From Sphaerotilus montanus (lineage in GTDB: Bacteria; Pseudomonadota; Gammaproteobacteria; Burkholderiales; Burkholderiaceae_C): a stretch of DNA of 64,000 nt. A model generated the notes under the pieces. The model saw nothing but the letters and a program-made list of their open reading frames with translations. It was not told the origin of the DNA and did not search any database. Below are positions 21,693-50,412 of the stretch, in pieces (position 1 is the first letter of the stretch; each line of letters begins with the position of its first letter). A program made the translations under genes and the position numbers. The stretch covers positions 1,736,001 through 1,800,000 of the forward strand of contig NZ_JACCFH010000001.1 of assembly GCF_013410775.1 (NCBI RefSeq). The letters run 5' to 3'.

Positions 21693-22796
21693 GTGCCCTC
21701 TGCTCCGGAGTCCCGCCCCTTGAGTTCCCCCTCGTCTTCCTTCCCTGCCGCACTCCAGTGGCTCGCCCGCCTCGCCATCGCCCTGTCGCTGCTGTGCGCG
21801 GTCGGTCTGGCCGGGCTGTACCACTTCGGCCCGGCGCGCAGCGGCTGGGCCGAGCTGCTGCGCTACGTGCCCTTCCTGCTCTACACGGCACCGGCGGCCC
21901 TCGCGCTGCTGCTGTCCCTGGCGCTGGGCTGGTGGTGGCGGCTGGGCGCGCTGCTGGCGCTCGCCCTGATGGCCACGGCGGTGATGGACCTCCGCCTCGG
22001 CCTGGGCCGCACCGACCTGCCGCCGGACGCGCCGGGCACCCGCACCGTGCGCTTCATGACCTACAACATCAAGTCCTACCGCGCAGTGTTCAAGGCAGGT
22101 GGCTTCGTGCCGCTGAACAACGAGATCGAACAGCACCAGCCCGACATCCTCGTGATGCAGGACGCCCGCGAGGTGTCGCGCGTGGGCGACCTGCCCTACG
22201 GCATGCGCGCCGTGCTGCCGAAGCACAAGCTCTACGCCTACGGACAGTACGCCGTCGCCAGCCGGTTTCCGATCAGCGGCTGCGCGCCGTTCGACATGTC
22301 GCTCAAGGACGAGAAGTCCGACTACGTGCGCTGCACCGTGGACATCGACGGCACCCGCATCGACCTCGTCACCGCCCACCTGCTCACCCCGCGCGAGGGC
22401 CTGAACGCCACCCGCGAGGAGCGCCTCGGCGGTCTGGACGACTGGAGCGGCAACTTCGCCGACCGCCTCTCGCAGGCGGAACGCATCACCGCGGCGCTGA
22501 CCCCGCTCAAGCGCCCCACCATCGTCGCCGGCGACCTGAACGCGCCCGAGCACTCGGTCGTCGTGGGGCGCTTCCTGGACCTGGGTCTGCGGGACGCCTT
22601 CTCCGCGGGCGGCATCGGCTGGGGCTTCACGCACGGCCATTCGTTCAAGCCGGGCGTGAGCTTCCTGCGCATCGACCACATCCTCGTCAGCCCAGACATC
22701 GGCGTGCGCGACGCCTGGGTCGGCTGGCGCGGTGGCTCGGAGCACCGGCCGGTGGTGGCCGATCTGGTGATCCCCACGCGGGCAGCCAAGCCATGA
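21693..22796 (+). CDS. Endonuclease/exonuclease/phosphatase family membrane protein
   Basis: A 367-residue protein starting at GTG 21693 (TTG 21720 is an alternative). Three hydrophobic segments occupy the first 110 residues; the rest is an EEP (DNase I/Mg-dependent phosphodiesterase) domain with FMTYNIKSYRAV, a modified VMQDARE motif, VDIDGTRIDLVTAHLLTP, IVAGDLNAPEHS and the final RIDHILVS and EHRPVVADL (Asp and His of the active site). It probably hydrolyses phosphodiesters or lipids outside the cytoplasm; substrate unknown. Its stop overlaps trhO (ATGA). Confidence 0.85.
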   Translation: MPSAPESRPLSSPSSSFPAALQWLARLAIALSLLCAVGLAGLYHFGPARSGWAELLRYVPFLLYTAPAALALLLSLALGWWWRLGALLALALMATAVMDLRLGLGRTDLPPDAPGTRTVRFMTYNIKSYRAVFKAGGFVPLNNEIEQHQPDILVMQDAREVSRVGDLPYGMRAVLPKHKLYAYGQYAVASRFPISGCAPFDMSLKDEKSDYVRCTVDIDGTRIDLVTAHLLTPREGLNATREERLGGLDDWSGNFADRLSQAERITAALTPLKRPTIVAGDLNAPEHSVVVGRFLDLGLRDAFSAGGIGWGFTHGHSFKPGVSFLRIDHILVSPDIGVRDAWVGWRGGSEHRPVVADLVIPTRAAKP

Positions 22797-23668
22797 GCCC
22801 CCACGCGATCACGGTGGGTGAAGTGATCCACAGCGCGTTCTACCGCTTCACCCGGCTCGACGATCCCGTCGCCACCGCCGAGGTGTTGCGTGCGCGCAGC
22901 CGCGACACCGGCGTGCTCGGCAGCCTCGTCGTCGCGACCGAAGGCCTCAGCGGCGTGGTCGCCGGCCCGGCCGCGGCGGTGGCCGCCTTCGAGGTGGCGC
23001 TGACCGGCGACCCGGTGTTCGGCGGCGCCTTCACCGGCCTGCACTTCAAGCGCAGCCTGTGCATGACTCCACCCTTCGCCCGGATGAAGGTCCACGTCAA
23101 GCCGGAGATCGTCGCCCTCGGCCTCGACGGCGTCAGCGGCCTGGACGAAACCGCGGAACAACGCGCCGCGACCCACCTCAGCCCCGCCGCCTGGCGCGAG
23201 TTGCTCACAGACGAAGACGTGGTGGTGCTGGACAACCGCAACCGCTTCGAGTGGCGGCTCGGACACTTCCGCGGCGCGGTTGATCCGGGTGTGGATAACT
23301 TCCGGGACTTCGCCGAACTGGTGCGCACCCAGGCGCCGCACTGGAAAGCCTGTGGACAACGGGTGGCGATGTACTGCACCGGCGGCATCCGCTGCGAGAA
23401 GACGGGGGTGTGGATGCGCGAGGAACTCGGGCTGGAGGTGTTCCAGCTCGACGGCGGCATCCTGAACTACCTGGAACAGACCGCACGCACCGGCCAGCCG
23501 GACGACACCTGGCGCGGCGAGTGCTTCGTGTTCGACAACCGCATCGCGCTGGACGCCCAGCTGCACGAGACCGCCACCACCGCCGAGCAGGTCTACGACC
23601 CGGCGCAGCCCGACGAGGCCTGGCGGCTCGCACGCGCCCGCCGGCTCGACACGGCCACCGGCGCATGA
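22793..23668 (+). CDS. trhO: tRNA uridine(34) hydroxylase, rhodanese-like
   Basis: A 291-residue TrhO/YceA protein. The N-terminal acylphosphatase-like domain has TEGLSGVVAGP and LHFKRSLCMTPPFARMKVHVKPEIV; the rhodanese domain has VVVLDNRNRFEWRLGHFRGA and the active loop YCTGGIRCEKTGVWM, with the catalytic cysteine. The enzyme introduces the 5-hydroxyl on uridine 34 of tRNAs, the first step to cmo5U/mo5U, using oxygen. The start is fixed by a 4-bp overlap with the upstream gene and the stop overlaps the downstream pseudouridine synthase, giving a tRNA/rRNA-modification pair. A perfect TTATCCACA motif lies at 23290-23298 within the coding region. Confidence 0.95.
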   Translation: MSPHAITVGEVIHSAFYRFTRLDDPVATAEVLRARSRDTGVLGSLVVATEGLSGVVAGPAAAVAAFEVALTGDPVFGGAFTGLHFKRSLCMTPPFARMKVHVKPEIVALGLDGVSGLDETAEQRAATHLSPAAWRELLTDEDVVVLDNRNRFEWRLGHFRGAVDPGVDNFRDFAELVRTQAPHWKACGQRVAMYCTGGIRCEKTGVWMREELGLEVFQLDGGILNYLEQTARTGQPDDTWRGECFVFDNRIALDAQLHETATTAEQVYDPAQPDEAWRLARARRLDTATGA

Positions 23669-24184
23669 GCCGCGCCCGGCCCGCCTGGACGCCGCCGATG
23701 CGCGACGGCGTGAGCGCCAGCCGCGTGGCCGTCACGCCGGGGCCTTGGCGCACGGTGCTGGACTTTCTTGTCCACAGGTTATCCACAATTCCGGAGACTG
23801 GCTGGCGCGAGCGGCTCGGGCGCGGCGAGGTGCTCGATGCACAGGGCCACGCCCTCGCGGTGGATGCGCCCTGCGTTATCCACAGCACGCTCTGGTACTG
23901 GCGCACGCTGGACGCGCCCGAGCCACGCATCCCGTTCGAGGTCGAGGTGCTGCACCAGGACGACTGGCTGCTGGCTGTGGATAAACCGCATTTCCTGCCG
24001 ATGACGCCCAAGGGCCGCTATGTGCAGGAGACGCTGCTGGTGCGGCTGAAGCGGCTGACCGGCATCGAGACGCTGGTGCCGATGCACCGGCTGGACCGGG
24101 AGACGGCGGGGGTCGTGCTGTTCTCGGTGCGGCCGGAGACGCGGCATGCGTACCAGTCGATGTTCCGGGACAGAGTTATCCACA
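23290..24184. repeat. Cluster of five perfect DnaA-box motifs
   Basis: Exact TTATCCACA (either strand) at 23290-23298, 23779-23787, 23876-23884, 23976-23984 and 24176-24184, with single-mismatch copies TGTGGACAA at 23351-23359 and TTGTCCACA at 23768-23776. They lie inside trhO and the pseudouridine synthase gene, in different reading frames (coding for VDN, LSTI, VIH, VDK, VIH). Identity with the consensus R-type DnaA box is exact; what they do here is unknown. Confidence 0.8.
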
Positions 24185-24600
24185 AGGTCTACGAGGCGGT
24201 GGCGCCGTGGTCCGATGCGCTGGCGGCCACGCTGCCACTGGAGCGCCGCAGCCGGCTGGCCGAGCGCGAAGACGCCTTCATGCAGATGCACGAGGTGGAC
24301 GGCGAGCCGAACGCCGTGACCCGCATCGAGTTGATCGAACGCCACGGCCCGCGGGCCCGCTACCGCCTGACGCCGCAGACGGGGCAGAAGCACCAGCTGC
24401 GGGTGCACCTGAACGCGCTGGGCATCCCGATCGTCGGCGACCGGATCTATCCCGTGCTGCAGCCGGAGCTGGCGTCCGGCGCCGAGCCGGACTACACGGA
24501 GCCGCTGCGGCTGCTGGCGCGGGAGATCGCGTTCACGGATCCGGTGACGGGGGAGGCGCGGCGGTTCGCGAGTCGGCGGGGGCTGCGTGTATCGGCCTGA
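23665..24600 (+). CDS. RluA family pseudouridine synthase
   Basis: A 311-residue RluA-type pseudouridine synthase. The catalytic motif is MHRLDRETAGVVLFS (active-site Asp in HRLDRETAG); other family blocks are LAVDKPHFLPMTP, HKVYEAVAP and QTGQKHQLRVHLNALGIPIVGD. There is no separate S4 domain. It isomerises uridine in rRNA or tRNA; the target site is unknown. ATG 23665 overlaps the trhO stop. Four perfect DnaA-box 9-mers sit inside the gene, one forcing a rare TTA leucine codon. Confidence 0.92.
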   Translation: MSRARPAWTPPMRDGVSASRVAVTPGPWRTVLDFLVHRLSTIPETGWRERLGRGEVLDAQGHALAVDAPCVIHSTLWYWRTLDAPEPRIPFEVEVLHQDDWLLAVDKPHFLPMTPKGRYVQETLLVRLKRLTGIETLVPMHRLDRETAGVVLFSVRPETRHAYQSMFRDRVIHKVYEAVAPWSDALAATLPLERRSRLAEREDAFMQMHEVDGEPNAVTRIELIERHGPRARYRLTPQTGQKHQLRVHLNALGIPIVGDRIYPVLQPELASGAEPDYTEPLRLLAREIAFTDPVTGEARRFASRRGLRVSA

Positions 24601-33386: not shown

Positions 33387-34853
33387 TGTGGATAACATCG
33401 GCCTGTGAACAAGTCCTTCCACCTTTACCTCGACAGCGCCGACCTTGGCGCCCTGCGCACCTGCCTGCCGCACCCGGTGGTGCACGGCGTGACGACCAAT
33501 CCGACGCTGCTCAAGCGCGCCGGTGTCACCTGGGAAGCCCTGCCCGGCCTGCTGACGGCGCTGCTGCGGCTGGGCGCGCAGCAGGTGCAGGCACAGGTCC
33601 GCTCGCCCGACGTGGACGGCATGCTGGCAGACGCGGACACGCTGCTGCGGCAGTTCGACCCGGGCCAGCTCGTCGTGAAGATCCCCGCCACGCGCGCGGG
33701 CCTGGCGGCCGGCGCGGCGCTCACGGCCCGCGGTGTGCCCGTCACCTACACCGCCGTCTATGCGCTGGAGCAGGCGCACTTCGCCGCCCAGCTCGGCGCC
33801 GCCTATGCCGCGCCGTACCTCGGGCGGCTGAACGATTCCGGTGTCGATGGCCTCGCGCTGATCGACCGGATGCAGGCCCTGGTGGCCGCCAGCGGCACGC
33901 CGATGCGGCTGCTGGTGGCGAGCATCCGCAGCCGGCAGGCCTACCTCGACCTGCTCGCGCTCGGCGTCGGCAGCATCACGATTCCGCCCGCGCTGTTCAC
34001 CGAGTTGATGGACCACGAGGCGACGATCGCGGCAGAACGCGGCTTCCTGGCGGACGCTGCGGAGTGACCGGACGCTCGACGCTCAAGCGTTGACGTCCAC
34101 CACCACCCGCCCGCGGACCTTGCCAGCCAAGATATCCACAGCCACCTGCGGCGCCTCGGCCAGCCCGACCGTGCGGGTCATCGACGCCAGCTTGGCCAGG
34201 TCCAGATCCTTGGCCAGCCGCGCCCACGCCTGCTGGCGCCGCGCCGTCGGGCACATCACCGAATCGACACCCAGCAGCCGCACGCCGCGCAGGATGAAGG
34301 GCGCAACACTGGTGGACAAGTCCATGCCCTGCGCCAGTCCACAGGCCGCGACCGCTCCGCCATAGCGCGTCTGCGCCAGCGCGTTGGCCAGCGTGTGCGA
34401 GCCGACCGAGTCGACGACACCCGCCCAGCGCTCCTTCTGCAGCGGCTTGCCGGCTGTGGATAACCCAGCCCGGTCGAGGATCTCCACAGCCCCGAGCGAC
34501 CGCAGGTACTCGGCTTCGTCCAGCTTGCCGGTGGACGCCACGACCCGGTAGCCCAGGCCGCTCAGCAGCGCCACGGCCACGCTGCCCACGCCGCCGCTCG
34601 CGCCCGTGACGAGGATCTCGCCGCTGTCCGGCCGCACGCCCGCGTCTTCCAGCGCCATCACGCACAGCATCGCGGTGTAGCCCGCGGTGCCGATGGCCAT
34701 GGCCTGGGCTGTGGATAACCCTGCAGGTCGCGCGATCAGCCAGTCGCCTTTCAGGCGCGCCTTCTGCGACAGGCAGCCCCAGTGCGTCTCGCCAACGCCC
34801 CAGCCGTTGTGGATAACCTGGTCGCCGACCTGCCAGCGCGGGTCTGTGGACAA
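33387..34853. repeat. Second cluster of DnaA-box motifs
   Basis: Exact TTATCCACA (either strand) at 33387-33395, 34455-34463, 34710-34718 and 34808-34816, with one-mismatch copies at 34131-34139 (ATATCCACA) and 34845-34853 (TGTGGACAA). The first is in the 29-bp gap before the transaldolase-family gene; the rest are within the acuI-like gene, twice forcing a rare TTA codon. Two of them share the extended form GGTTATCCACAGCC. Confidence 0.8.
33405..34067 (+). CDS. Transaldolase family / fructose-6-phosphate aldolase-like enzyme
   Basis: A 220-residue class I aldolase of the small transaldolase (FSA/TalC) type. The Schiff-base lysine is in LVVKIPATRAG; other blocks are LYLDSADLGALRTCLPHPVV, HGVTTNPTLLKRAGV and VASIRSRQAYLDL. 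It starts at GTG 33405; no strong ribosome site is visible and a perfect TTATCCACA motif (33387-33395) sits 9 bp before the start. It is the third gene of the sugar-uptake operon, which suggests that it acts on the phosphorylated form of the imported sugar. Confidence 0.85.
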   Translation: MNKSFHLYLDSADLGALRTCLPHPVVHGVTTNPTLLKRAGVTWEALPGLLTALLRLGAQQVQAQVRSPDVDGMLADADTLLRQFDPGQLVVKIPATRAGLAAGAALTARGVPVTYTAVYALEQAHFAAQLGAAYAAPYLGRLNDSGVDGLALIDRMQALVAASGTPMRLLVASIRSRQAYLDLLALGVGSITIPPALFTELMDHEATIAAERGFLADAAE

Positions 34854-37112: not shown

Positions 37113-38375
37113 CTAGAAACCGACCCTGACCGCCACCTGAGCCGCGCGCTGCGGCAAGATGCCGCCCCATGATCACGCCCCGCACCAAGCCATCGAGCTT
37201 CTTTCCTGAGGAGGCCGCGGACGACCTGTTCGTGGTGCAGCAGCGCAAGGCCAAGCTGGAGGGCTACGTGCAGACGCTGGCGGCGATGGACGAACTGATC
37301 GACTTCGCAGCGATGGCCTCGGCGGTGGACAAGGCCTGCCCTCGCGCTGACCGCAGCAAGGGCGGACGCCCGCCGTACCCGACCGAGGCGCTGGTGCGCA
37401 TGGTGTTCCTGCAGGGGCTGTACAACCTGTCGGACGAGCAGTGCGAGCACCAGGTGCTGGACAGGCTGAGCTTCCAGCGCTTCTGCCGGCTGGACGGCGC
37501 GCTGAACATCCCGGACGCACGCACGCTGTGGAGCTTCCGGCAGCGGCTGGCCGAAGGCGGGCTGGGAGGCCGGGCGATTTTCGAGGCGTTGAGCCAGCAG
37601 TTGCAGCGGCACGGCTTCATCCCGAGGGGCGGGCAGATCGTGGACGCCAGCATCGTGCAGGCGCCGATCACGCAGGCCAACGCCCGGGAGCGCGAGGCGC
37701 TGAACAAGGGGGAGGCGCCCGAGGGCTGGAGCAAGAAGCGCCTGGCGCACACCGACCGGGACGCGCGCTGGACGCAAAAGCACGGCAAGTCGTACTACGG
37801 CTACAAGCTGCACGGCAACGTGGACGCACGCTACAAGCTGATCCGCCAGATGAAGATCACGGCGGCCAACGCGGACGACGGACAGCAACTGCCCGACGTG
37901 CTGCAGGTGGCGAACACGCGCAAGCGGCTGCTGGCCGACCGGGGCTACGACAGCGCGGCCAACCGTCAGACGCTGCAGCAGCACGGACTGGCCGACGGCA
38001 TCGCACGTCGCGCCAAGCCTGGGCAGACGGCCAAGGTTCGGCTCAAGCAGCGCAACAAGACGATCAACCGCACGCGGGCACGGGTCGAGCACGTCTTTGC
38101 GGCGCTGAGCCAGCAGGGCGGCAAGTGCGTGCGGGCGATGACGCTGGCGCGCAATGCGCTGGCGATCACGCTGCAGTGCGCGGCCTACAACGCACGCAGG
38201 CTGGTGTGGCTGGTCAAGAGCGCAGGTCCGTCCGCACAGCCCGCGTGAGGGGAAAAACCCCGTCGCGGGGTACCGCGACGGTGGGGACAGGGGCTCGCCG
38301 CCGTCATCCACTGCTCGTCTGAGCTGGATTTGTGCAGGCTCAGACCAGGTTCAGGGCTGCCGGGCCGGTTTCTAG
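37113..38375 (+). mobile_element. IS5-family insertion sequence
   Basis: About 1.26 kb carrying one transposase gene. Ends are CACTTCTAGAAACCG at 37108-37122 and its inverse CGGTTTCTAGAAGTG at 38366-38380, the inner halves continuing with partial similarity. The CTAG at each end (37113-37116 and 38372-38375) may be the target duplication, typical of IS5 (CTAR), so the exact tips are uncertain by a few bases. Removing the element would rejoin CACTTCTAGAAGTG, itself a palindrome. It sits directly against the IS3-family copy that begins at 38379. Confidence 0.8.
37169..38248 (+). CDS. IS5-family transposase
   Basis: A 359-residue DDE transposase. N-terminal part (GGRPPYPTEALVRMVFLQGL, YNLSDEQCEHQVLDRLSFQR) matches the IS5-family DUF772 domain; the catalytic core has QIVDASIVQAP (first Asp), RLLADRGYDS (second Asp, GYDS signature) and TRARVEHVF (Glu). 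The reading frame is complete without frameshift, so it may be active. No passenger gene. Confidence 0.95.
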   Translation: MITPRTKPSSFFPEEAADDLFVVQQRKAKLEGYVQTLAAMDELIDFAAMASAVDKACPRADRSKGGRPPYPTEALVRMVFLQGLYNLSDEQCEHQVLDRLSFQRFCRLDGALNIPDARTLWSFRQRLAEGGLGGRAIFEALSQQLQRHGFIPRGGQIVDASIVQAPITQANAREREALNKGEAPEGWSKKRLAHTDRDARWTQKHGKSYYGYKLHGNVDARYKLIRQMKITAANADDGQQLPDVLQVANTRKRLLADRGYDSAANRQTLQQHGLADGIARRAKPGQTAKVRLKQRNKTINRTRARVEHVFAALSQQGGKCVRAMTLARNALAITLQCAAYNARRLVWLVKSAGPSAQPA

Positions 38376-38386
38376 AAGTGTCCTGG

Positions 38387-39594
<1,208 letters not shown>

Positions 39595-39630
39595 CTATCG
39601 GTGTGTGCGAAATCATTAGACCAGGACAGG

Positions 39631-41430
39631 TCAGGGCCGCTCGCGATCGTCGCGCTGCGCCCGCTCCTGCGCGAACAGCTCTTCCAGCTGCTGGCGCCCC
39701 TTGCGCGCCATCGACACCAGCGCCTTCTCGTCGCGGTGGTGCGGCCAGAGCGCTTCGAGCTGGGCCACCGAATGGGTCCGGAACCGGCTGGCGAGTTCGC
39801 TGGCACGCTCCGGCGCCCAGCCCATGCTTTCGAGCACGCTGCGTCCGCTGGCCAGTGCCGAGTCCAGCGTCTCGCGCTCGACCAGCGTGACCCCGCGGTC
39901 GCGCAGCGCGAAGTAATGCTGCACGTTGCGCGCCCGCGCCACCAGCGTCAGGTGGGGAAAGTGTTCCCGCGCCAGATCGACCAGCCTCAGGCTCTGGTCG
40001 ACATCGTCGATGGCCACCACCAGCACCTTGGCCGAGGCCGCACCAGCCATGCGCAGCAGGTCGAGCCGCGTGGCATCGCCATAGTGGACCCGGAAACCGA
40101 ACCCGCGCAGCGAGGCGATCTGCTCGGCATCGTGGTCGAGCACGGTCGCCTTCAGGCCGTTGGCATAGAGCAGCCGCCCGACCACCTGTCCGTAGCGGCC
40201 GAAGCCGGCAATGATCACGGGCGCCTCCTGCGGCTCGGTCAGCGCATGGGGCGAGTTATCCACAGACTGCTGTGCATAACGTGGCAGCACCCAGCGGTCC
40301 ATCACCACCAGCAGCAGCGGCGTGACGAGCATCGACAGCGCCACCGTGCCAATCAGCACCGAGACCTGTGACTCGGTCAGCACATGCGCATCCGCCCCCT
40401 GCTGGAACACCACGAACGCAAATTCGCCGCCCTGCGCCAGCAGCAAGGTGAACACCGGCCGCTCAGGCCCAGGCACGGCCACCGTGCGCGCCAGCACCCA
40501 CAGCACCAGCGCCTTGATCGCCAGAAACCCCGCCAGCAGCAGCAGCACGCTGCCCAGGTGCTCGCGCACGGCATGGAAGTCGATCGACATGCCCACCGCC
40601 ATGAAGAACAGCCCGAGCAGCAGGCCCTTGAACGGCTCGACGTCGGTCTCCAGCTCGCGCCGGTATTCGCTCTCGGCCAGCAGCACGCCGCCCAGGAAGG
40701 CACCGAGCGCAGCCGACAGCTCCACCGCATGCATCAGGCTGGCCAGCCCGACGACCAGCCCGAGCGAGGCGGCGGTGAAGATCTCCGGCGAGCCGCTGCG
40801 CGCGATCCAGCGCAAGGCATGGCGCAGCAGCAGGCGGCCGACCACGATGATGCCGACGATCACCGCCAGCGCCCGCAGCGCCTCGCTCCACGGGTTGCCG
40901 CTGTCCTGCACCTTGGGCGCCAGCAGCGGGATCAGCGCCAGGATCGGAATGGCCGCCACGTCCTGAAACAGCAGGATGGAGAACCCGGCCTGCCCACCCG
41001 CGGTGCCCATCAGGTTGCGCTCCTGCATGACCTGCAGCGCCACCGCCGTGGACGACAGCGCCAGCCCCAGCCCGGTGACCACCGCGACCGGCCAGGACAC
41101 GCCCAGCAGCAGCGCCACGCCACCCACCGCCAGCGCACAGCCCAGCACCTGCGCGCTGCCCCAGCCGAAGATCGAGCGCCGCATGGCCCACAGGCGCGGC
41201 GGCTCCAGCTCCAGCCCGATCAGGAACAGCATCAGCACGACGCCGAACTCGGCGAACTGCAGGATCGCGTCCGGGTCACGGACGAACTGCAGGCCGAAGG
41301 GGCCGATCGCGATGCCCGCCCCCAGGTAGCCGATGATCGAGCCCAGTCCCAGCTTGCGCGCCAGCGGCACCGCGATCACCGCCGCAGCGAGGTAAACCAG
41401 TGAGGCGTTGAGCCAGTGTCCGTGTTCCAT
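39631..41430 (-). CDS. Monovalent cation:proton antiporter-2 (KefB/KefC type)
   Basis: A 599-residue CPA2 antiporter. About twelve to thirteen membrane segments cover residues 8-385, with the conserved ALSSTAVALQVMQERNLMGT, SILLFQDVAAIPILAL (Asp of the ion path) and LAQGGEFAFVVFQQGA. The RCK/KTN domain starts near 405 (VIIAGFGRYGQVVGRLLYAN, a Rossmann GxGxxG variant). It probably exports K+ in exchange for H+ and responds to NAD(H) or glutathione conjugates as Kef systems do; no KefF/KefG partner is nearby. One perfect TTATCCACA lies at 40256-40264. IS3 copy 1 inserted just past its stop. Confidence 0.92.
   Translation of the reverse strand: MEHGHWLNASLVYLAAAVIAVPLARKLGLGSIIGYLGAGIAIGPFGLQFVRDPDAILQFAEFGVVLMLFLIGLELEPPRLWAMRRSIFGWGSAQVLGCALAVGGVALLLGVSWPVAVVTGLGLALSSTAVALQVMQERNLMGTAGGQAGFSILLFQDVAAIPILALIPLLAPKVQDSGNPWSEALRALAVIVGIIVVGRLLLRHALRWIARSGSPEIFTAASLGLVVGLASLMHAVELSAALGAFLGGVLLAESEYRRELETDVEPFKGLLLGLFFMAVGMSIDFHAVREHLGSVLLLLAGFLAIKALVLWVLARTVAVPGPERPVFTLLLAQGGEFAFVVFQQGADAHVLTESQVSVLIGTVALSMLVTPLLLVVMDRWVLPRYAQQSVDNSPHALTEPQEAPVIIAGFGRYGQVVGRLLYANGLKATVLDHDAEQIASLRGFGFRVHYGDATRLDLLRMAGAASAKVLVVAIDDVDQSLRLVDLAREHFPHLTLVARARNVQHYFALRDRGVTLVERETLDSALASGRSVLESMGWAPERASELASRFRTHSVAQLEALWPHHRDEKALVSMARKGRQQLEELFAQERAQRDDRERP
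40256..40264. repeat. Isolated DnaA-box motif in antiporter gene
   Basis: Exact TTATCCACA inside the KefB-type coding sequence (encoding VDN on the minus strand). Part of the window-wide excess of this 9-mer. Confidence 0.75.
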
Positions 41431-42861: not shown

Positions 42862-43767
42862 TTAACAGTCCGCATCCCGGAGTAAAAAATCGAGGCGCCT
42901 GCACAAATCCTCATCCAAACGTCCGGCCTGCCGCGCCAGCGCGGGCTGCGGGCCGGCCAGGAAGCGGTAGAACGCCGCCCGCTGCGGCCCGAGCGCCTCT
43001 AGCGCTTCCAGGTGGCGCTGCACCACGCCGAGGTCACCCCGTGCGATCGGCCCCGACACCGCCCCGGCCAGTCCCCGCGCCCCGACGGCCTCCAGCGTGC
43101 CGCGCGACAGCGGCAGCAGCGCCCGCAGCGCCTCGGCCTCGTCCACGCCGAAGCTGGCCCACAGCGCCACCGCCTCCTGCAGCACCGGCAGCAGGAAACT
43201 CGCCGCGTAGCCGGCCGCCACGTGGTAGCGCACCCGCATACCCGGCGGCAGCACGGTGGCCGGCATGCCGAGCGCCGCCGCCAGCGCATGCAGCGTCGGC
43301 ATCAGCGCGGGGCCGGCCTCGATCGCCGCGGTGCTGCCGGCCAGGCGGTGCGCGGCTTGTTCCGGGTCGGAGAAGATCTGCAGCGGATGGAAGCCGCCCG
43401 TGTGGGCGCCGGCCTGCGCGGCGGGGGCGAGCGCGGCGACCTCGGTGGCGCCGCTGCAGTGCACCACGGCCTGCCCGGCCCGCCAGCGCAGCGACGCCGC
43501 CACCGGCGCGATCGCATCGTCCGCCACGGTGAGCAGCACCAGATCGGCACGGTCGACCGCCTGCTGCTGCGGCGTGCTGGGCTGTGGATAACTTGCTGCG
43601 GACAGCCGCTCGGGCTGCCGGCTGCCGACCGCGACCACCGGCAGGCCGGCTCGGTCCAGCGCGAGCACCAGCGCCCGCGCCACGCGGCCAGCGCCGACCA
43701 GGCCGATGCGCAATGCAGGCAGGTCCGGCAGGGGTGAGGAAACGGAAGAAACGTCAGGGGTGTTCAT
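42862..43767 (-). CDS. Rossmann-like and DUF2520 domain protein
   Basis: A 301-residue protein with an N-terminal NAD(P)-type Rossmann fold (LRIGLVGAGRVARALVLAL, DLVLLTVADDAIAPVAASL, VVHCSGATEV) and a C-terminal helical DUF2520 domain with RYHVAAGYAASFLLPVLQEA. Related to ketopantoate reductase and pyrroline-5-carboxylate reductase, but the reaction is unknown. ATG 43767. A perfect TTATCCACA lies at 43583-43591. Its start is only 6 bp from the divergent MazG gene. Confidence 0.85.
   Translation of the reverse strand: MNTPDVSSVSSPLPDLPALRIGLVGAGRVARALVLALDRAGLPVVAVGSRQPERLSAASYPQPSTPQQQAVDRADLVLLTVADDAIAPVAASLRWRAGQAVVHCSGATEVAALAPAAQAGAHTGGFHPLQIFSDPEQAAHRLAGSTAAIEAGPALMPTLHALAAALGMPATVLPPGMRVRYHVAAGYAASFLLPVLQEAVALWASFGVDEAEALRALLPLSRGTLEAVGARGLAGAVSGPIARGDLGVVQRHLEALEALGPQRAAFYRFLAGPQPALARQAGRLDEDLCRRLDFLLRDADC
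43583..43591. repeat. Isolated DnaA-box motif in Rossmann-protein gene
   Basis: Exact TTATCCACA on the minus strand, in the third reading frame (spans SYPQ), outside the two clusters. Confidence 0.75.
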
Positions 43768-46862: not shown

Positions 46863-46919
46863 GTGGGCACACCCGTTGAGAAGGATGTCCTGGTCTAATG
46901 ATTTCGCACACACCGATAG

Positions 46920-48127
<1,208 letters not shown>

Positions 48128-48189
48128 CCAGGACAGGAGACGGTCCAGCATACGGCAAGGAACGGCCCGACTGGTGCAGCGCAGCAGAC

Positions 48190-48231
48190 AACAGAAAACC
48201 CGCTTGCTGTTGCGCAAACAGCAAGCGGGTT
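48190..48231 (-). terminator. Strong intrinsic terminator after livK
   Basis: AACCCGCTTGCTGTT (48197-48211) and AACAGCAAGCGGGTT (48217-48231) form a perfect 15-bp stem with a 5-nt loop. On the minus strand the stem is followed by TTTTC, as for a terminator of the livK gene, 54 bp past its stop. It also insulates livK from IS3 copy 2. Confidence 0.85.
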
Positions 48232-49424: not shown

Positions 49425-49992
49425 GGATTCAGACTCCGACTAGGACCAGGGATGAGAAGAACCGGGAAACCGTCTGCCAGCAGCCTGGAGGCCTTGCGCT
49501 GGCAAGCCCCGCTGTCTTTCAAGATGTGTGCCAGCGCTGCGTGTCTTCACTGGAGCCCTCTCGGGTTCGGTGCTTCGCCAGATGCGCAGCCAAGGTCTTT
49601 CCTGTTCAGCACGCGTTCTTTCCAAGAAGGCTCCTGCGATTCAGGGTCTTGTTGTCCGGACTTCTTTTTTGTTCTTCTCTGCTCTTATTTATGTTTTTAT
49701 AGATAGTAGATAGTAGTAGAGGGGGCGGTTTTTTGTGCATAACCCTGTTTTCTCCTTATAAATCAAGCACTTGAGCTGGTGACAAGTCTGTGTGTGACCC
49801 GGTGGAGCAACATGGGAGTCAGAGGGATCAACTTTCCGGGCGGCCGGTTTTTCATGAACAACTCCACACCTGTTCATCGGTTCTCCACAGAGTTGTTCAT
49901 GCAGCGCGCCGTGACCGTGTGCTGCGCCTCGCTGCTCGCTCCGGTGACGGCAACCCGTACCATCCACGGCTTTCACGATCGGGGATCCGTCC
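49425..49992. other. Long intergenic region between livK and SET gene
   Basis: 568 bp without a supported gene. The half nearest livK (49690-49770) is AT-rich with TATAAA-like stretches on the minus strand and probably holds the livK promoter. The half nearest the SET gene carries an 11-bp inverted repeat (see separate entry). I saw no small RNA or riboswitch fold that I can name. Confidence 0.5.
49853..49901. promoter_or_regulatory. 11-bp inverted repeat upstream of SET gene
   Basis: CATGAACAACT (49853-49863) and AGTTGTTCATG (49891-49901) are perfect inverted arms with a 27-bp gap that itself contains another TGTTCAT. Three GTTCAT elements in 50 bp suggest a multi-copy operator. It lies 90-140 bp ahead of the SET gene. 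Confidence 0.45.
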
Positions 49993-50412
49993 ATGGGCAC
50001 GCCTGCCAACCCTCAGAAGTACGCCGTCCTGGCCGCACCCAGTCCGATCGAAGGCACCGGCGCTTTTGCCGGTGAAGCGATTCCGGCCCGGCGCAAGATC
50101 GGCGAGATCCGTGGAGAGATGATCAGCGTCCACGAGGCCTGGGAACGCGTGAAGACGATGGAACGCATCATGATGGTCGAAATTTCGCCAAGAAGAGCGA
50201 TCGATGCGTCCAGATCGAGCGATCCGCTGCGTTTCACGAACCACTCCTGTGCGCCCAATGCGGTGCTGCGCATCCGGCAGGGACGCATCGAGATCTATGC
50301 GATGCGGGCGATTTCAGCAGGCGAGGAAATCACCTGCAACTACGGTGAAACGCACCACGAAGGCCGCCTGACCTGCCGTTGTGGTGCGGTCAACTGTGCG
50401 GGAAAGCTGTGA
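49993..50412 (+). CDS. SET domain protein (putative lysine methyltransferase)
   Basis: A 139-residue minimal SET domain. It shows the start segment SPIEGTGAFAGEAIPARRKI, the pseudoknot core RFTNHSCAPNAVLRI and EEITCNYGE with the catalytic-region Tyr, and a post-SET CRCGAVNC cysteine cluster for zinc. SET proteins methylate lysines using SAM; a few bacterial ones act on histone-like proteins or ribosomal proteins or are secreted effectors. There is no signal peptide. Its substrate is unknown. It is monocistronic, convergent with fadD. Confidence 0.88.
   Translation: MGTPANPQKYAVLAAPSPIEGTGAFAGEAIPARRKIGEIRGEMISVHEAWERVKTMERIMMVEISPRRAIDASRSSDPLRFTNHSCAPNAVLRIRQGRIEIYAMRAISAGEEITCNYGETHHEGRLTCRCGAVNCAGKL

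Follow-up and report, generated by a model that had tools for sequence, protein, structure and literature searches.

Clusters of DnaA boxes close to oriC were reportedly described in Bacillus subtilis by Okumura in 2012 and in Streptomyces by Smulczyk-Krawczyszyn in 2006. In E. coli, datA, about 470 kb from oriC, is a group of DnaA boxes distant from dnaA that lowers active DnaA, and the available excerpts describe it as a non-coding region. According to the accessible part of a review, deleting six oriC-proximal DnaA-box clusters of B. subtilis leads to early initiation (PMC13220808). The basal unwinding system (BUS), as set out in the available portion of another paper, joins a DnaA box to three or more trios (consensus 3'-GAT-5', with a central A) through a spacer no longer than 16 bp (PMC8287927). 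Published excerpts further state that oriC does not lie beside dnaA in E. coli and in Synechococcus lividus PCC 6715 (PMC6669920, PMC6323995), and that the main-chromosome origin of Burkholderia cenocepacia, a relative of the family studied here, is uncertain (PMC4948915). In the portions covered of the literature on Leptothrix, Sphaerotilus, Comamonadaceae, Acidovorax and Burkholderiales origins, we found no report of such a dnaA-distant oriC, DoriC, which possibly holds one, being outside that scope.

Here we analysed a 64-kb stretch of contig C1 of Sphaerotilus montanus (the window). Like the B. subtilis and Streptomyces chromosomes, it has several DnaA-box clusters outside but near a putative oriC, with several consensus boxes per ~1-2 kb; unlike there, the boxes lie mostly in coding sequence, round a putative origin far from dnaA, and their function is one that we infer. 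They recall datA in being DnaA-box groups distant from dnaA, but form several clusters, mostly in genes (trhO, an RluA-type gene and a dehydrogenase gene, and, in the case of cluster C, kinase, DTW and luciferase-like genes). We consider it likely that the boxes in trhO and the RluA-type gene are one of several genic clusters round the true oriC, at 49.4-50.0 kb of the window and 459 kb from dnaA, and that they serve, most probably, as DnaA titration sites.

The perfect box TTATCCACA occurs 11 times in the window, where 100 dinucleotide shuffles gave 0.05 on average and never as many as 11, confirming the initial annotation, in which fewer than one copy was expected. Five of these, together with two copies of the single-mismatch form TTGTCCACA, lie in 23290-24184, precisely where they had been annotated. 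The boxes and the two genes of cluster A are:

22793-23668, plus strand: trhO, with one perfect box and one TTGTCCACA
23665-24600, plus strand: RluA-type pseudouridine synthase gene, with four perfect boxes and one TTGTCCACA
23290-24184: cluster A, in trhO and the RluA-type gene; perfect boxes at 23290 (minus), 23779 (plus), 23876 (plus), 23976 (minus) and 24176 (plus), and TTGTCCACA at 23351 (minus) and 23768 (plus)
33387-34853: cluster B; perfect boxes at 33387, 34455, 34710 and 34808 (all minus), and TTGTCCACA at 34845 (minus)
40256-40264, plus strand: lone perfect box, within a gene for a sodium/hydrogen exchanger with a TrkA domain (KefB-like)
43583-43591, minus strand: single perfect box
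C1:1811644-1814143: cluster C, just beyond the window edge and denser than cluster A; eight perfect boxes and five TTGTCCACA

Genome-wide (5,068,925 bases, three contigs), TTATCCACA has 37 copies compared to 2 for the reversed control word. All 37 are on contig C1, 30 of them within the 355 kb of C1:1759290-2113630. The other form, TTGTCCACA, has 33 copies compared to 17 for its reversed word and clusters partially, in the same places as TTATCCACA, with 9 of the 33 at most 30 kb from the trio-spacer-box module described below; for both forms together (TTRTCCACA), 28 of 70 genomic copies lie inside +/-30 kb of that module. Furthermore, the top-ranked enriched 9- and 10-mers of C1:1759000-1825000, compared to other stretches, are the box words and their overlaps, a result obtained against a background partly made of stretches chosen for boxes, which is a bias that works against it. 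Measured from the module, cluster A lies 25.5 kb to the left and cluster C 26 kb to the right. Boxes on the right arm extend to +328 kb, and on the left arm there is no perfect box from -26 kb as far as the dnaA promoter, an excess on the right arm only that is odd for a simple origin-centred reservoir. An Rfam scan of the window gave no match.

Nine of the 11 perfect window boxes lie within four genes, on coding and template strands, and the genic boxes occupy phases 0, 1 and 2, in agreement with the earlier observation that all frames and both strands are used. As for the host genes, trhO holds as named (NF001133, 222.3 bits for a cut-off of 170), while the second protein is RluA-type by a match to TIGR00005, the RluA subfamily model, of 121.3 bits, under the 192.7 cut-off; the best named relatives of its gene are from Sphaerotilus and Leptothrix. 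The boxes at 34455, 34710 and 34808 are inside the zinc-type dehydrogenase gene, where two of them read TTA TCC ACA. Box 23779 likewise reads TTA TCC ACA in frame, and all three TTA among the 195 leucine codons of the four box-carrying genes are within boxes.

The boxes are kept above their flanks in two close relatives, the Sphaerotilus MAGs G004 and G005. Of the five perfect boxes of cluster A, G005 keeps four intact and has TTGTCCACA in place of the fifth; G004 keeps two, has TTGTCCACA at a third and lacks the remaining two. Overall, 23 of 32 TTRTCCACA boxes are unchanged in G004, against 35% of same-phase control 9-mers, and 19 of 26 in G005, against 38% of controls, with box identities of 95.5% versus 87.1% for control 9-mers (resampling p 0.00005) and 94.4% versus 86.2% (p 0.0006), respectively, all figures that are inflated because the contigs of both MAGs were chosen for carrying boxes; subtracting one unchanged box for each of the six G004 contigs leaves, by plain arithmetic, 17 of 26. 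An A/G swap at the third base, which gives the other box form, is the sole difference in 4 of the 9 changed boxes of G004 and in 3 of the 7 of G005. Leptothrix sp. C29, S. natans and S. sulfidivorans, too, have boxes at three of these loci (the trhO/RluA junction, C1:1779.6 kb and cluster C), mostly at other positions: S. natans and S. sulfidivorans have theirs ~15 bp and ~150 bp from the 43583 box in the aligned locus, and the C29 boxes at the first two loci are all TTGTCCACA. Since the boxes outconserve their flanks, force TTA and recur in the same loci of S. natans and S. sulfidivorans, these results support the earlier proposal that selection acts on the DNA and not on the protein.

Across the genus, perfect copies number 14-39 in 7 of 13 genomes (two of which, G005 and G007, are 83% and 68% complete) and 4-7 in the remaining six, which means that the genus does not depend on the clusters. 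TTRTCCACA is absent from the 20.9 kb surrounding the RluA-type gene in S. hippei, S. mobilis and L. discophora. On a tree of the RluA-type gene the box-rich state needs two changes, and a single origin stays compatible with it. Mutational or mobile spread of the box word, also put forward in the initial annotation, is unlikely because the box words lead the enrichment list and because the RluA-type and DTW genes are common to box-rich and box-poor species but the boxes are not. Outside the genus, PBB6 and two Ideonella genomes (L063, L066, L067) have one TTATCCACA and two TTGTCCACA near the RluA-type gene.

The DnaA protein of S. montanus has an intact DNA-binding domain by profile (PF08299), and its C-terminal part matches chain 1j1v, a 94-residue DnaA piece that we take to be E. 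coli DnaA domain IV, at 4.5e-30. The protein, encoded at L041 5126-7111, has a long Ala/Pro-rich linker. The DnaA open frame has 662, 735, 774 and 754 codons in four box-rich species, 514-605 in four box-poor members of the genus and 676 in G143, another genome of the family; a longer DnaA may accompany the box excess. A second, short DnaA-like frame in the genome, under the DnaA cut-off, may by its sequence be Hda.

Next we consider the position of the origin. A GC-skew flip, a trio-spacer-box module and the order dnaA-module-parS make it likely that the true oriC is in the window. The features of the region are:

49425-49992: likely oriC, a divergent intergenic region of 55% GC
49661-49760: AT peak, candidate unwinding element; 66% AT, the most AT-rich 100 bp of C1:1740001-1830000 (90 kb)
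49700-49719, plus strand: DnaA-trio run TAGATAGTAGATAGTAGTAG, with the box-side reading 3'-GATGATGAT-A-GATGAT-A-GAT-5'
49720-49733, plus strand: 14-bp spacer, GC-rich toward the trios
49734-49742, minus strand: DnaA box TTATGCACA, one mismatch to TTATCCACA, adjoining the trios across the 14-bp spacer
49853-49901: 12-bp perfect inverted repeat CATGAACAACTC/GAGTTGTTCATG, read by eye, with arms at 49853-49864 and 49890-49901 and a 25-bp gap
49881-49889, plus strand: weaker box TTCTCCACA, likewise inside the likely oriC
49993-50412, plus strand: SET-domain gene (PF00856)
C1:1325141-1327102: dnaA, with dnaN adjoining

On the top strand the module thus reads TAGATAGTAGATAGTAGTAG, the 14-bp spacer and TGTGCATAA, with the DnaA box on the opposite strand. 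It resembles the BUS in having a DnaA box, a spacer of permitted length and at least three trios with a central A, and is unlike it in lying far from dnaA with a single clear box by the trios. At least three TAG trios followed by a box are found at six places in the 4.17 Mb of sequence examined, namely one each in S. montanus, C29, S. sulfidivorans and S. natans and two in G009 (4,909,403 bases, one contig), presumably L. cholodnii SP-6. The two G009 modules (C1:4753851 and 4754197) are 346 bp apart, and their boxes fall within its only group of three TTGTCCACA. The trio core ATAGTAGTAGAGG is invariant across the other four species, and its flanks vary. The likely oriC is flanked by a BraC-like periplasmic binding protein gene and the SET-domain gene, and C29, S. 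natans, S. sulfidivorans and G009 each have a frame orthologous to the latter next to the module (tblastn, 75-86% identity, 139 residues); queries with the SET, BraC-like and acyl-CoA synthetase proteins found none of the 30 module loci of 2-3 kb in other genera. The wider pattern TAGTAGTAGN{4,20}TGTGNNNAA has a single match in the S. montanus genome; of 150 genomes of the family, 38 (S. montanus among them) contain it, versus 8 for the reversed pattern. Those eight genomes count against the oriC reading, as does the one-mismatch state of the module box in S. montanus itself. No trio pattern is present in the examined dnaA region, nor at cluster C, which argues against a second origin there.

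Some further features of the region were observed. The 12-bp inverted repeat neighbours the SET-domain gene, and aligned relatives differ at that spot. Two opposite copies of an insertion-sequence-like element with identical translations (38330-39619 and 46895-48217) bracket ~7 kb beside the likely oriC, where they could drive inversion. Box-poor G003 has six TTGTCCACA in 0.8 kb (C1:88973-89797), at distances of 22 kb to parS and 213 kb to dnaA; from the sequence, this is a candidate for an origin lacking the exact trio pattern.

As the sampled stretches had no skew flip at dnaA, we analysed the contiguous 752 kb of C1:1300001-2052000. The best single skew change point in 1-kb bins is C1:1781001, or 45001 in the window (bootstrap 95% C1:1707001-1852001), and none of 4000 block permutations was equally good. 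G-C per kb changes there from -9.7 on the left to +11.6 on the right, and the fit score, 47.1 at best, is 46.5 at the module (1.7857 Mb) and 0.01 at dnaA. KOPS words number +25/-45 to the left of the module and +34/-14 to the right; a nearly identical word appears in the accessible part of work on Burkholderia cenocepacia (PMC4948915). Skew and KOPS turn the opposite way at ~4.28-4.38 Mb, giving balanced arms of ~2.5 and ~2.3 Mb from a start near 1.78 Mb. The terminus was placed in this way because the XerD half-site gave no dif there, its seven one-mismatch matches genome-wide including none in 4.0-4.83 Mb. In C29 (115 kb stretch) the lowest cumulative G-C is at 159.0 kb and the module at 158.1 kb, and in S. 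sulfidivorans (100 kb stretch) they are at 83.0 and 82.8 kb, with a slight rise afterwards; the examined stretches of these two and of S. natans have few KOPS and no clear turn. For a start at the module, then, skew, KOPS and parS order agree in S. montanus, but the skew of G009 does not: its sampled skew has a broad minimum, still falling past the modules and lowest at dnaA, 150 kb from them, and its KOPS turn near 4.80 Mb, ~45 kb from the modules. This discrepancy could stem from a recent inversion or from an origin persisting at dnaA.

As with the oriC of E. coli and S. lividus, the likely origin is not beside dnaA; what sets it apart is the distance, 459 kb, and the occurrence in other genera of a similar module whose distance from dnaA varies. 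We sought dnaA in 35 of the 38 module genomes (G078, G160 and G162 left out) and found it on the same contig as the module in 24. In four of these the module lies no more than 0.3 kb beyond the dnaA 3' end; it is at 7.6-260 kb in 18, at 459 kb in S. montanus and at 958 kb in G139, where the match is perhaps due to chance. In S. natans, the contig with cluster A ends short of the module, which lies with dnaA, ~292 kb apart, on another contig. The parS words were sought in 15 genomes, comprising eight of the genus including S. montanus and seven others in which one long contig carries both module and dnaA (G139, G093 and G167 left out). They were found in 12, and not in box-rich Leptothrix sp. 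C29 (G001), S. sulfidivorans D-501 (G006) and S. natans ATCC 13338 (G010), an absence that counts against the oriC reading. Of these 12, nine have a known module and one, G003, lacks it; the other two, G008 and G012, were outside the module search. The order is dnaA-module-parS in all nine genomes having the three, and parS is closer to the module than dnaA is: module and parS are 11-50 kb apart (163 kb in S. montanus), and dnaA and parS 73-284 kb (621 kb in S. montanus). This order is evidence independent of skew. Boxes in S. montanus lie 5-6 kb away from its parS sites, and in G009 two of seven perfect boxes (C1:4702173, 4704011) are <2 kb from a parS site.

Under the titration reading, DnaA bound to the module box would load onto the trios and open the AT-rich stretch. 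The flanking clusters would be copied soon after initiation, upon which the high-affinity sites would double and free DnaA would fall; by soaking up spare DnaA, the clusters would help to hold copying to once per cycle. We infer binding of DnaA to the boxes, firing at the module, and clusters that delay rather than aid re-initiation. A DnaA reservoir or titration role had been among the proposals of the initial annotation and is, from the sequence, still the best guess for function; the likely origin 25.5 kb away had gone unseen.

Alternatively, with the origin at the new site, the clusters might promote initiation by recruiting or delivering DnaA, like the distal boxes of B. subtilis incC or like DARS, which we hold to be unlikely. 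Many boxes are indeed at most 30 kb from the module, and the available part of an EMBO J 2019 paper describes a distal box that raises local DnaA and works at great distance from the trios (PMC6669920). However, boxes as far as +328 kb are remote for local delivery, and the oriC-proximal clusters of B. subtilis and Streptomyces repress untimely initiation, according to the accessible text of two papers (PMC4585315, PMC13220808). Distinctly less probable is that the boxes mark a transcription regulon of DnaA, or sites of some other DNA-binding protein sharing the word, a reading that we give little credit: boxes do occur in and near several unrelated genes, and TTGTCCACA is enriched alongside TTATCCACA, but the 9 of 11 window boxes inside four genes are on either strand and not at promoters, and the clusters surround the skew minimum.

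Replication might instead start at dnaA, the clusters being a datA-like locus ~435-490 kb away and the skew flip the product of a recent inversion. The distance of E. coli datA from its oriC, ~470 kb, the one perfect box and one TTGTCCACA in the rpmH-dnaA gap, and the G009 skew minimum near dnaA speak for this. Against it, there is no skew change at dnaA, an origin near 1.78 Mb, not 1.325 Mb, agrees with the terminus near 4.3 Mb, the skew of C29 and S. sulfidivorans is lowest at the corresponding module, parS is closer than dnaA to the module in all nine genomes, and the dnaA region examined lacks trios. We consider a start at dnaA quite improbable, somewhat less so than the regulon.

Beyond the titration reading for S. 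montanus, we give about even credence to a broader one, in which this large betaproteobacterial family has a portable box-spacer-trio origin that has left dnaA and now lies 8-460 kb off, between dnaA and parS, and in which, in part of Sphaerotilus/Leptothrix, the genes round the moved origin were rewritten into a DnaA reservoir and the DnaA linker was lengthened. If true, the chromosome origin would be far from dnaA, where several of the examined genomes start their numbering, and there would be a sequence signature for origins across a family related to Burkholderia cenocepacia. Related species with and without DnaA reservoirs would then provide a direct test of the initiator-titration model.
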